Shown here: positions 2,848 through 7,384 of the stretch, piece by piece
How the letters are laid out: each line of letters begins with the position of its first letter
Position numbering within the stretch: the first letter of the stretch is position 1
Virus record (IMG/VR): IMGVR_UViG_3300034012_001179
Coordinates: 1 to 24,064 of that record
Reading direction: 5' to 3' (one strand)
DNA from: a virus
DNA length: 24,064 nucleotides
Made by a program: the position numbers and the translations under genes
Notes under the pieces: generated by a model
Database searches by the model: none
What the model was told of the DNA's origin: nothing
Seen by the model: only the letters and a program-made list of their open reading frames with translations

Positions 2848-3072
2848 CTACCAGAGATAAAGCGTCATATCACTCAACTCTAGCTTGTTGACTGAAGGCT
2901 TTTCATAGCCAATAACACCTTTGCACATTGAGCAAATGCGCCTGGCACCGTGGGAGTCATACACTTTTCCAGACTTGCGCATACCGCCCGTCGAATACAT
3001 TCGACATGCTGTATCGGTGCCAGTCCAGATATGCGCTGCCGCGCTTCGCTTTTTGAAAAAGTAATATTGCAT
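2848..3072 (-). CDS. Isolated minus-strand CxxC protein (74 aa)
   Basis: Start at 3072 was chosen because AGAGG lies six bases upstream of this ATG. The longer frame to 3108 has no such site. The product contains HIWTGTDTACRMYSTGGM, then GARRICSMCKGV, giving one Cys plus a CxxC and several His that could bind a metal. This resembles small Cys-containing phage and plasmid proteins I have seen, with function unknown. It is the only minus-strand gene inside the early arm, between the terminator at 2805-2846 and the structured stretch at 3073-3544. It is therefore probably transcribed separately, perhaps as an acquired single-gene cassette. Confidence 0.5.
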   Translation of the reverse strand: MQYYFFKKRSAAAHIWTGTDTACRMYSTGGMRKSGKVYDSHGARRICSMCKGVIGYEKPSVNKLELSDMTLYLW

Positions 3073-3308
3073 ACAAACCTCTGAAAGCTGACTGGAATAC
3101 AACCTCACCCGTAAAAAAACAGGTAATGCGCTCGCTCTCGTTTGTCTAGGCTACAGATTTGCATCTGCTCTCAGGTCTGGCCCCGATGCTCACCAGTTGT
3201 ACCTATCCAGGCTGGCTTGCAAGGAGAACCCCAAGATTAGCCACGTTTATTCCTTTGGTCGCGGCACCGAGGGAGGGCTGGGTTATGGCCCCGTATGCCA
3301 TCGCCGCT

Positions 3309-3389
3309 GAAAACAAAAAAGCCACTTACTGCTGCTCCTAGTAGCTGTCCCTTGGGGGTAAGTCAAGGGTAGAAGCATGAGTAAGTGGC
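3309..3389 (-). terminator. Minus-strand terminator-like hairpin with a large structured loop
   Basis: Read on the minus strand, GCCACTTACT (3389-3380) pairs perfectly over 10 bp with AGTAAGTGGC (3330-3321). TTTTTTGTTTTC follows at once (3320-3309). The 49-base loop contains an internal CCCTTG/CAAGGG hairpin. This has the form of an intrinsic terminator for a short minus-strand RNA starting nearby, or a switchable terminator in the leader of the gene ending at 2848. Confidence 0.45.
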
Positions 3390-3410
3390 CTTCCGATTGT
3401 TGACAGCTAC
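3321..3410. repeat. Interleaved inverted repeats (pseudoknot-capable)
   Basis: Two perfect inverted repeats are interleaved. GCCACTTACT (3321-3330) pairs with AGTAAGTGGC (3380-3389), and GTAGCTGTC (3341-3349) pairs with GACAGCTAC (3402-3410). A third hairpin, CCCTTG (3349-3354) with CAAGGG (3364-3369), lies between. The two long stems cannot nest; they form a pseudoknot or mutually exclusive structures. Confidence 0.6.
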
Positions 3411-3481
3411 GACAACAAGCGAATCTTACTGGAAAACATGGCATTGCCATTTGCCAACCCGACGAACGGTTGATTATTAGC

Positions 3482-3510
3482 TATGTACATATGTTCCTAG
3501 TGTGTATAAT
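3482..3510 (+). promoter_or_regulatory. Probable promoter -10 box with adjacent palindrome
   Basis: TATAAT at 3505-3510 is a perfect sigma70-type -10 hexamer, 35 bases before the first ATG of the recombination operon. The palindrome TATGTACATA (3482-3491) occupies the expected -35 region, where no good TTGACA match exists. That arrangement suggests an activator or repressor site. The call rests on one strong hexamer and position. Confidence 0.45.
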
Positions 3511-3544
3511 CCCTATCGTTGTACTTAACCAAAGGAGAAACAAC

Positions 3545-3790
3545 ATGGATTACAAGCTAGATGAATCAGATCGGTATGAGTTAAGAAACAAGATCGCCTG
3601 GTTGCAATACCGTCTTGCATCAAGTTCTATGAACCTATGCAGCGACGGTCTTGGTCTTACTCATCACAACATGGATTACTTTGAAAAGATTTTCCAAGAC
3701 TTAGAAGACCTCAAGACCATCGTCAAAGTCATTAGAAGCCGCGCTGATCGCAAGAAGATCACAACCTGCTTTGATGAGGAGGCAGCATGA
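3545..3790 (+). CDS. First gene of the recombination operon, unknown (81 aa)
   Basis: Start at 3545 was chosen for AAAGGAG just upstream. The longer frame to 3470 would translate through the promoter-like region. The 81-aa product is helical: YELRNKIAWLQYRLASSSM, then FEKIFQDLEDLKTIVKVIRS, ending acidic (DEEAA). A small helical-bundle or coiled-coil protein is likely. No family was recognised. It overlaps the next gene by ATGA, and cotranscription with the exonuclease and annealing genes suggests an accessory role in phage DNA metabolism. Confidence 0.65.
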   Translation: MDYKLDESDRYELRNKIAWLQYRLASSSMNLCSDGLGLTHHNMDYFEKIFQDLEDLKTIVKVIRSRADRKKITTCFDEEAA

Positions 3791-4148: not shown

Positions 4149-5039
4149 ATGACTAGCTTTGACACTGAATCAAGACGCAAGGCGATCTGGGCTACTGATG
4201 CCCGAAAGATCGCTGATGGCAAGGCAGCAGACGTTTACTTAGAGAAGATCGGCCAGACAGAGCGTGAAGACATAAGCCACATTGAAGCAGTGCAGTGGGG
4301 TTTGAAGCTGCAAGATGTCATTGGCCGTGAGGCTAGCGCCAGGCTAAAGATGGAACTCAAAGAAGCTGACTATGAGCTATATCACCCTGAGCATTCATGG
4401 ATGGCATCTCACTTTGATTTCATCTCTGCTGATGGCACGACACTGGTCGAGGTGAAGAACTACAACCAATCAAAGAGGAATCAATACGATGCAGATATTG
4501 CACTTATGCCTGCGGCCGACAGAGCGCAATGTATTCATGAAGCTACGGTACATCGGGTACAGCGTGTCGTACTTGCGGTGCTCTTTGGGGGACAAGAACT
4601 GGTACTTATCGACACGCAAGTATCAGACGCTGAGAAAGACTCGCTCATACAACTGGAAGCTGAGCTATGGGGCTCAATACAGGCCAAGCAGCCTCCAAGC
4701 GCGACTACGGTGGACGCAGCAAAGAAACTCTACCCCATATCCACTACGGCTGGGGTTCTAGCTAATGCTCAGTTAGAACAAGCCTGCCAGCAACTGAAAG
4801 CGATTAAGGCCAACATCAAACAGTACGAAGAAGCTGAGGAAAAGCTACAAGGCTTTATCCAAGGGCAGATGAAAGAAGCAGGCTCACTCGTCACGTTCGA
4901 TGGCAAGGTGCTTGCAACATGGAACTCAGCCAAAGGTTCCAAGCGCTTCGATCCAAAGCTACTGCAAGCAGAGATGCCTGAAGTGTATGAGCGTTACATC
5001 GTTGAACAACCTGGCTCACGGAGGTTTTTAGTCAAATGA
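4149..5039 (+). CDS. YqaJ-type 5'-3' exonuclease (lambda Exo-like)
   Basis: 296 aa. ATG at 4149 follows TAGGAGGCAGC; the in-frame 4131 start lacks such a site. Features in order: RRKAIWATDARKIADGKA near the N-terminus, WGLKLQDVIG (about 50-59), HSWMASHFDFISADGTTLVE with Asp90, then Glu101-Val-Lys103 as the PD-(D/E)XK core. Next is HEATVHRVQRVVLAVLFGGQ with His135/Gln138. The C-terminal half is a long helical region (LEQACQQLKAIKANIKQYEE). The family degrades one strand of double-stranded DNA to leave 3' overhangs for annealing. The annealing protein follows with a 4-base overlap, the classic two-gene recombination pair. Gln55 replaces the Glu of the canonical early motif, which I recall as normal in this phage subgroup. 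Confidence 0.88.
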   Translation: MTSFDTESRRKAIWATDARKIADGKAADVYLEKIGQTEREDISHIEAVQWGLKLQDVIGREASARLKMELKEADYELYHPEHSWMASHFDFISADGTTLVEVKNYNQSKRNQYDADIALMPAADRAQCIHEATVHRVQRVVLAVLFGGQELVLIDTQVSDAEKDSLIQLEAELWGSIQAKQPPSATTVDAAKKLYPISTTAGVLANAQLEQACQQLKAIKANIKQYEEAEEKLQGFIQGQMKEAGSLVTFDGKVLATWNSAKGSKRFDPKLLQAEMPEVYERYIVEQPGSRRFLVK

Positions 5040-5884
5040 GCAATCTAGTCGATCCAACCAAACTTGATCAGTCAATCATTGATTCAATCGTACTTCGAGG
5101 TGACTTGAGTGGACTCAAGGAAGAACAACTCACTGGATACTACAACTACCGCTGCCAGCAAGTCGGACTCGATCCTTCTGCGAAGCCGTTCGATCTTCTT
5201 GTCTTGTCAGGAAAGAAGGTCTTGTATGCGAATGCTGGGGCCACACAGCAACTCAGCAATCTGCATGGATTGTCCACTGCGATCACTAACAGGGAGCGAG
5301 TTGAGAATGTGTATCTTGTATCTGTCAGATGCACTGGCAAAGATGGACGAAGCTCTGAAAATCAGGGAGCAGTTGACATCTCAGGTCTTTCTGGTGAAAA
5401 GCTAGCCAATGCCTTAATGAAGGCTACAACCAAAGCGATACGCAGGACTGTACTTGCTCATTGTGGACTGGGGATGCTTGATGAAACTGAACTCGACACT
5501 ATCCCGACTAATCAATATCAGAAGGTCGATATGCCGGTTGCTACGCCTCTACAACCGCTTGCTGAGGTCATTGAGGGTAAGTACAAGGTATTAGTTCCTG
5601 AAGGCGATAAGAGCAAGGTTTACAGCTCTCACCAGGATGAAATGCAGTGGCAGGATAACTTCTTTGGTTTGATCGGCAAGATCGCTAACTCTAAGAAGAT
5701 GACAACTGAGGAGAAGAACGCCAAATTGGCGTCACTCTTTCGGGTCAACCACGAAACCATCGATAACTTTGGCGGGGTTGCAGCCATTGCATTCAAGAAG
5801 CGCTGTCACGATCATGCGGTCGAGGGTTTTGTCGCAAAAAAGATCGTGACTCTGGATGCGGAGGAAGACGTAGTGTTCGATTGA
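5036..5884 (+). CDS. RecT-like single-strand annealing protein
   Basis: 282 aa, overlapping the exonuclease gene by ATGA. The N-terminal half has YYNYRCQQVGLDPSAKPFDL (about 40-60) and KKVLYANAGATQQL, then a beta-strand pair (VYLVSVRCTGKDGR). The signature SGLSGEKLANALMKATTKAI leads into RRTVLAHCGLGMLDETEL. These match the RecT/Redbeta-type annealing proteins found in many phages. They coat single-stranded DNA and pair homologous strands, acting with the upstream exonuclease. The C-terminal part (about 180-282) is variable and acidic at its end (DAEEDVVFD), as expected for a partner-binding tail. The family call is strong; the exact subfamily is uncertain. Confidence 0.82.
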   Translation: MSNLVDPTKLDQSIIDSIVLRGDLSGLKEEQLTGYYNYRCQQVGLDPSAKPFDLLVLSGKKVLYANAGATQQLSNLHGLSTAITNRERVENVYLVSVRCTGKDGRSSENQGAVDISGLSGEKLANALMKATTKAIRRTVLAHCGLGMLDETELDTIPTNQYQKVDMPVATPLQPLAEVIEGKYKVLVPEGDKSKVYSSHQDEMQWQDNFFGLIGKIANSKKMTTEEKNAKLASLFRVNHETIDNFGGVAAIAFKKRCHDHAVEGFVAKKIVTLDAEEDVVFD

Positions 5885-6861: not shown

Positions 6862-7073
6862 GTGAGATGACCAGGGAAGAGATGCAGGCCAAGATGGAAA
6901 CACTCTATGCGTTAACAAGAGAGTTACGAGCCATGCTGGCAAGAACTGATCACAAACTCAAAGTCAGGGAAATGTTCATTCATGCCTTACTCGATCCTGA
7001 TGCTTTTGGCTATGCCGTAGAGAATACCGTCAGGGAAGAAGCCTGGAAAATCCTACAAGGAGAGCGCGATTGA
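6858..7073 (+). CDS. Small helical protein of unknown function (71 aa)
   Basis: 71 aa. Starts in ATGA overlap with the previous gene and ends in TTGA overlap with the nuclease gene. The N-terminal half is a long helix (REEMQAKMETLYALTRELRA), followed by MFIHALLDPDAFGYAVENTV and a final helix. No family was recognised. Its place between a DNA-binding protein and a nuclease suggests a DNA-metabolism accessory role. Confidence 0.6.
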   Translation: MSEMTREEMQAKMETLYALTRELRAMLARTDHKLKVREMFIHALLDPDAFGYAVENTVREEAWKILQGERD

Positions 7074-7384
7074 GCAAGCTAGGTAAAGACCGAGGTGCTA
7101 GTTATGAGCGCGAGGTCTGTAATGCGCTTACAGAGCGTTTAGGAACCAAGGTGACGCGTGTACTAGGGCAAGCAAGAGATGGCGGCTCAGATATCGATTT
7201 AGGCCCGTTTATGATCGAATGCAAGCGTCGTAGGAAGATAGCGCTCTATGAATGGATGGAGCAAGCCAAAGTCTCATCCAAGGGTGAGAAGGTGCCTGTA
7301 GTTATTTGCAGGGCTGATGGCAAGGAGAGTCTAGTGATCTTCAGACTTGACGATGCGATCACGCTCATGCAGAATGAATTGTGA
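7070..7384 (+). CDS. PD-(D/E)XK nuclease, Holliday-junction-resolvase-like (104 aa)
   Basis: 104 aa. TTG start at 7070 with AAGGAGA upstream, overlapping the previous stop. Motifs: Glu13 in GASYEREV, Asp41 in GGSDIDLGPF, Glu50-Cys-Lys52 in MIECKRRRK, and Gln65 in EWMEQA. This is the order seen in Hjc-type and related small endonucleases. Such enzymes act as dimers on branched DNA, and the gene lies in an operon with the exonuclease and annealing protein. Resolving recombination or replication junctions before packaging is a reasonable role. A restriction-type or VRR-NUC-like enzyme is the alternative. It is the last gene before the terminator at 7476-7503. Confidence 0.8.
   Translation: MSKLGKDRGASYEREVCNALTERLGTKVTRVLGQARDGGSDIDLGPFMIECKRRRKIALYEWMEQAKVSSKGEKVPVVICRADGKESLVIFRLDDAITLMQNEL

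Follow-up and report, generated by a model that had tools for sequence, protein, structure and literature searches.

The phage genome analysed here almost certainly carries, on the minus strand at positions 3315–3417, a gene for a small RNA, and the fold predicted for its transcript from sequence comparison is a pseudoknot. This RNA of about 103 nt is probably free-standing and trans-acting, recognised by its shape in the early phase of infection, and neither an antisense RNA nor a switch for the next gene. The window is the entire IMG/VR virus record IMGVR_UViG_3300034012_001179, 24,064 bases in length.

Structure of the predicted RNA gene

Two perfect inverted repeats were read from the sequence, one of 10 bp (3321–3330, GCCACTTACT, complementary to 3380–3389, AGTAAGTGGC, at 10/10 positions) and one of 9 bp (3341–3349, GTAGCTGTC, complementary to 3402–3410, GACAGCTAC, at 9/9 positions). 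The repeats are interleaved, with a hairpin CCCTTG/CAAGGG between them, and A6 at 3315–3320 corresponds to T6 on the minus strand, directly past the 10-bp stem. All of these had been located exactly to the base in the original prediction. It had overlooked an 8-bp stem (P2b, 3333–3340/3370–3377) that prolongs the 10-bp stem past a 2x2 internal loop, a hairpin of 5–6 bp (P0, 3413–3418/3397–3402) that holds one arm of the 9-bp repeat in its loop, and a minus-strand -10 box at 3423–3428. The 9-bp pairing (P1) would connect the P0 loop with a bulge of the long terminator hairpin formed by P2, P2b and P3. The minus strand of 3300–3420 has a fold energy of -53.4 kcal/mol (z = -6.9) with the pseudoknot left out of the count, better than all 200 dinucleotide shuffles, and the plus strand folds more weakly (z = -3.7). 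The predicted elements, all on the minus strand, are as follows.

3315..3417, minus strand: predicted small RNA gene of about 103 nt; 5' end predicted near 3416–3417 from the promoter position, 3' end in the T6 at 3320–3315; covariance model (CM) match at 3315–3424, minus
3423..3428, minus strand: predicted -10 box TAAGAT (sequence)
3445..3450, minus strand: likely -35 box ATGGCA with a 16-nt spacer; weak in the window phage, TTGACA/TTGCAA-like in many relatives
3397..3418, minus strand: hairpin P0 (3413–3418 with 3397–3402), whose loop bears the P1 5' strand (sequence; covariation between subfamilies)
3402..3410, minus strand: P1 5' strand GUAGCUGUC, the loop side of the 9-bp repeat (sequence; covariation)
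3341..3349, minus strand: P1 3' strand GACAGCUAC, in the bulge between P3 and P2b (sequence; covariation)
3380..3389, minus strand: P2 5' strand, outer stem of the terminator hairpin (sequence; covariation)
3321..3330, minus strand: P2 3' strand (sequence; covariation)
3370..3377, minus strand: P2b 5' strand, partner 3333–3340 (fold; covariation); a U.G pair here would be A.C on the opposite strand, which fixes the RNA strand
3333..3340, minus strand: P2b 3' strand (fold; covariation)
3349..3369, minus strand: hairpin P3 (3364–3369 with 3349–3354) with a variable loop (fold; covariation)
3315..3320, minus strand: T6 tract, predicted end of the intrinsic terminator (sequence); also seen in relatives retrieved through protein neighbourhood, a selection in which T6 played no part

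Among 136 distinct upstream regions, the mean best promoter match to TTGACA/TATAAT scores 9.1 of 12, versus 6.7 for shuffled sequences. In most cases 11–13 nt separate the start of the -10 box from P0, and a TTGACA-like box lies 16–18 nt further upstream. Since the promoter is phased to P0, transcription is predicted to start close to the first nucleotide of P0. Two features of an sRNA gene are found, a promoter of its own in phase with the 5' end (on sequence evidence) and an intrinsic terminator at the 3' end. The P0 loop measures 7–9 nt, 8 nt being the commonest class.

Covariation of the helices and the pseudoknot

The comparative evidence shows that all predicted helices, including the pseudoknot, are kept through compensatory changes. 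In alignments, the P1 arms co-vary between relatives (GTAGCTGTC/GACAGCTAC, GTCGAAGTC/GACTTCGAC, GTCGTTGTC/GACAACGAC, GTGAGAG/CTCTCAC and others), so that the sequence of P1 drifts while the pairing persists. Shuffles, slides and own-versus-foreign comparisons served as nulls. An alignment of 11 sequences (A3), made with MAFFT and with no use of structure for fitting, has compensatory changes in 5 of the 9 P1 pairs with 98% of cells paired, and the covariation score of its whole structure was reached by none of 500 shuffles. A larger alignment (A5) contains 88 CM-aligned sequences, one row being an antisense chance match; the nested helices were fitted there, and P1 was not in the model. Both-sided changes occur in 34 of its 36 pairs, including 7 of the 8 P1 pairs, and 93.8% of cells are paired versus 36–49% when slid. 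G.U pairs are frequent on the minus strand, for example U.G at one P2 pair in 40 sequences of A5; the RNA strand is fixed because these pairs would be mismatches on the other strand.

The 7-nt loop of an RNA finds its exact complement within the same RNA in 82 of 87 relatives, versus 14 of 7038 foreign comparisons, with 31 different loop sequences represented. The 87 sequences had been picked with P1 present, and the test was therefore repeated on 58 loci chosen solely by P2 and the T-run. P1 pairing is in place in 56 of these, and a loop complement of at least 7 nt is found in 52; foreign comparisons in this set give such a complement in 12.9% of cases, many of them between close relatives. 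The two loci lacking P1 pairing, L390 and L435, look like chance pattern matches. The P0 stems also co-vary among the 58 loci (GTTGC/GCAAT, ATTGC/GCAAT, AATTC/GGAAT, ACTGT/ACAGT); the first search patterns partly constrained P0, yet it is variable and still paired in this set. The RNA pseudoknot on the minus strand, as originally predicted, is borne out by the compensatory changes. Changes of this kind in both stems among related phages, which the prediction had named as its support, are very strongly present, both in the own-loop complements and in the P2-selected loci.

Relatives and distribution

Relatives were retrieved with the protein encoded at 5036–5884, which follows the RecE-like exonuclease gene in the recombination operon and whose matches in named phages are all distant. 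This query yielded 78 loci. The RNA gene is present in 31 of the 40 recombination-operon relatives with more than 2.3 kb of upstream sequence, and it is kept in every such relative with a full-length match of at least about 66% identity. The nine without it comprise seven distant relatives (48–53% identity), plus L086 (70%/155 residues) and L088 (64%/148 residues), both of which match partially. The RNA gene lies 1.2–2.3 kb upstream of the 5036–5884 homologue and would be transcribed away from the operon. A second query, the minus-strand gene 2851–3072, retrieved 11 loci, three of them with the RNA gene, and the RNAs of two (L008 and L009) are identical. Because 8 of these 11 loci are without the RNA, gene 2851–3072 was rejected as an obligate partner. 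It encodes a small cysteine-containing protein with a CSMCKG motif, for which no match was found in Pfam or PHROG; its 11 IMG/VR relatives are mostly in loci without the RNA.

The family set was enlarged with two DNA patterns and the CM, and the resulting counts are lower bounds. The structural scan gave at least about 160 distinct RNAs in at least 158 loci, a few chance cases included. Uncultivated environmental phages with the gene number well over a hundred. Among the 50,697 public phage records of INPHARED, blastn detected it in MW202484 alone, a metagenomic podovirus from Manatee Spring. The 16 positive virus records searched whole have one copy each, antisense echoes set aside. In bacterial genomes, the 5' pattern matched 111 stretches, and the CM applied to 100 loci gave one convincing case (L321), in a beta-proteobacterial MAG; a scan of 369 genomes of the same class detected no further RNA gene. 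A second, weaker CM match of 44 bits was observed in this MAG (G001) at a contig edge (C22:16-107), perhaps on another phage contig.

Genomic context and subtype exchange

The neighbours of the RNA gene in the window are early genes, namely a RecE-like exonuclease gene (PHROG 434) at 4149–5036, a RusA-like resolvase gene at 7070–7384 and a gene for an SSB-like protein (weak match). RusA, Erf and regulator genes lie near the RNA gene in other phages. Of 103 unique loci, 62 have their closest downstream ORF (60 aa or longer) on the same strand as the RNA gene, and 41 have it on the opposite one. The first conserved downstream ORF is on the same strand in 75 of 93 loci, at a median distance of 479 nt, and on the opposite strand in 18, and these ORFs are of differing gene families. 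In 29 of the 93, a conserved ORF on the same strand lies no more than 400 nt downstream. In the window, a same-strand ORF (2848–3108) lies 207 nt behind the RNA gene.

RNA subfamilies are swapped, like allelic cassettes, beside one flank that is 92–97% identical. Loci L055 and L058 share 97% identity in the promoter-side flank, but their RNAs are of different subfamilies and 68% identical; flank and RNA disagree likewise, on the other side, between L032 and L029, L030 and L040. This disagreement between flank and RNA body indicates that the gene keeps its position as subtypes are exchanged.

Several further features were observed around the gene. The adjoining block 3113–3310 is strongly conserved (94–96% identity in L057 and L120, 87% in L063 and L228) and has no stable reading frame, with a one-base insertion in L120 and a one-base gap between the window and L063. 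It contains a small palindrome, CAGATTTGCATCTG, both arms of which are altered in L057 and L063. Methylophilales phage MEP301 and MW202825 contain weak matches to the block, which is rare (three contigs by exact 27-mer) and possibly a second structured element. Between the divergent promoters, 3429–3545 and the corresponding regions of relatives contain short repeats of variable copy number, of the GGCAAAC type or the GGCTCGCTAA type. The motif TTCCTAGTGT, next to the plus-strand TATAAT at 3505–3510, is nearly invariant and is likely an operator or early-promoter element. In L101, a 748-aa terminase-large-subunit-like ORF located 1.6 kb downstream of the RNA has an apparent intein in the ATPase region (ends ...VVHN-C).

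Proposed role of the RNA

In the model that we favour, host RNA polymerase would initiate at the sigma-70-type promoter immediately before P0, and transcription would halt at the terminator consisting of P2/P2b and U6. The RNA would form a compact knot in which the P0 loop of 7–9 nt pairs with the bulge between P3 and P2b. It may then act in trans early in infection, its shape being recognised either through binding of a host or phage protein or through self-assembly by loop-bulge pairing. We infer this trans, shape-based action, at slightly better than even confidence, from the free-standing gene, the stiff fold, the drifting helix sequences, the lack of a conserved open seed and the varied neighbours.

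The original prediction proposed a conditional terminator, in which the 9-bp stem would break the 10-bp stem. The 10-bp stem with its T6 does have the form of a terminator, and the conditional part did not hold up. The two stems have no nucleotide in common, so P1 and P2 can coexist; they are conserved together, the promoter directly precedes the structure, and no one gene consistently follows. The better fit is a free-standing small RNA. That the RNA is nonetheless a conditional terminator or leader for the gene behind it appears quite unlikely: the same-strand ORF of the window and the prevalence of same-strand first conserved ORFs would suit such a role, but only 29 of 93 loci have one within 400 nt, the first conserved ORF is on the opposite strand in 18, and the families differ. 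Since most conserved downstream ORFs are on the same strand, read-through control may occur in some phages. It is very improbable that the locus works as a DNA element, a cruciform or replication origin at which transcription is merely activating, a proposal made for the lambda pO region. Its location in the early recombination/replication region would agree with this, as would the importance of the pO promoter in lambda replication (PMC12197685), but the one-strand G.U pairs, the phased promoter and terminator and the pseudoknot covariation argue that the RNA itself is under selection.

A U-tail terminator with a free-standing promoter is typical of trans-acting sRNAs, and pairing is the mode of most known phage sRNAs (PMC12197685). 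An antisense RNA of this type would target an mRNA of the host or of a phage and use the knot for scaffolding and stability. We nevertheless consider an antisense function rather doubtful, because the single-stranded J1/2 and L3 are variable, the sole long loop is internally paired, and 9-mer complementarity to the own phage is no higher than to foreign phages, as compared over about 9 kb of phage DNA per phage. A homo-oligomer, in which loop and bulge pair between molecules into dimers, rings or cages as in ROOL and GOLLD, is likewise a minority possibility. Covariation is the same for intra- and intermolecular pairing, and the covarying loop-junction pairs of ROOL and GOLLD, once thought to be tertiary contacts, proved to be intermolecular by cryo-EM (PMC12286853). 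An 8-nt P0 loop with 7 nt paired resembles known kissing loops, and in some members the 2–3 nt between P0 and P2 leave little room for an intramolecular fold; against this, the RNA is small, and the 5–9 nt found there in most members seems enough. Less likely still is the fuller proposal that these are widespread, uncatalogued phage RNAs of about 100 nt that self-assemble by intermolecular loop-bulge pairing, with swapped subtype cassettes each recognising only its own kind.

A free-standing RNA acting in trans would join, as another family, the few phage RNAs that are apparently recognised through their shape. The compact pseudoknotted RNA appears to be maintained by many environmental phages as a standing gene, yet Rfam 15 and nearly all of the named phage records searched lack it. 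The exchange of subtypes in the manner of cassettes gives a hint of a role in specificity, in phage-host or phage-phage conflict. At about 103 nt, the RNA is short enough for synthesis, probing and structure solution, and a CM is now available for finding members.

Comparison with known RNAs

Neither the window nor the loci of 12 relatives matched any Rfam 15 family at the gathering cut-off, the ROOL and GOLLD models included, and a permissive search with the RNA element gave chance-level matches only. No tRNA or tmRNA was found, and topic searches of the open-access literature turned up no account of the present RNA. PreS, VpdS, sar, OOP and c4 are likewise small non-coding RNAs encoded by phages, and several have an intrinsic terminator and a promoter of their own; they act by base pairing with mRNA, whereas here no target in the own phage was seen and the main loop is internally paired. 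ROOL and GOLLD are also phage-borne non-coding RNAs with covarying loop-junction pairing, but they are several hundred nt long and often near tRNA genes, whereas the present RNA of about 103 nt lies near recombination/replication genes.

HDV-like ribozymes have the strand order P1, P2, P3, P1', P2', a P1 of about 7 bp and a J4/2 with the catalytic C before P2'. The present RNA shares this order and the P1 length and differs in its extra P0 hairpin, in the position of P2b directly after P1' and in having no Rfam match. An HDV-like ribozyme was rejected, as P2b' directly follows P1' and leaves no J4/2 with a catalytic C. The present RNA resembles the pRNA of phi29 in being a small phage RNA whose loop pairing could be intermolecular. 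It differs from pRNA in that 7–9 bp are formed from loop to bulge, again with no Rfam match.
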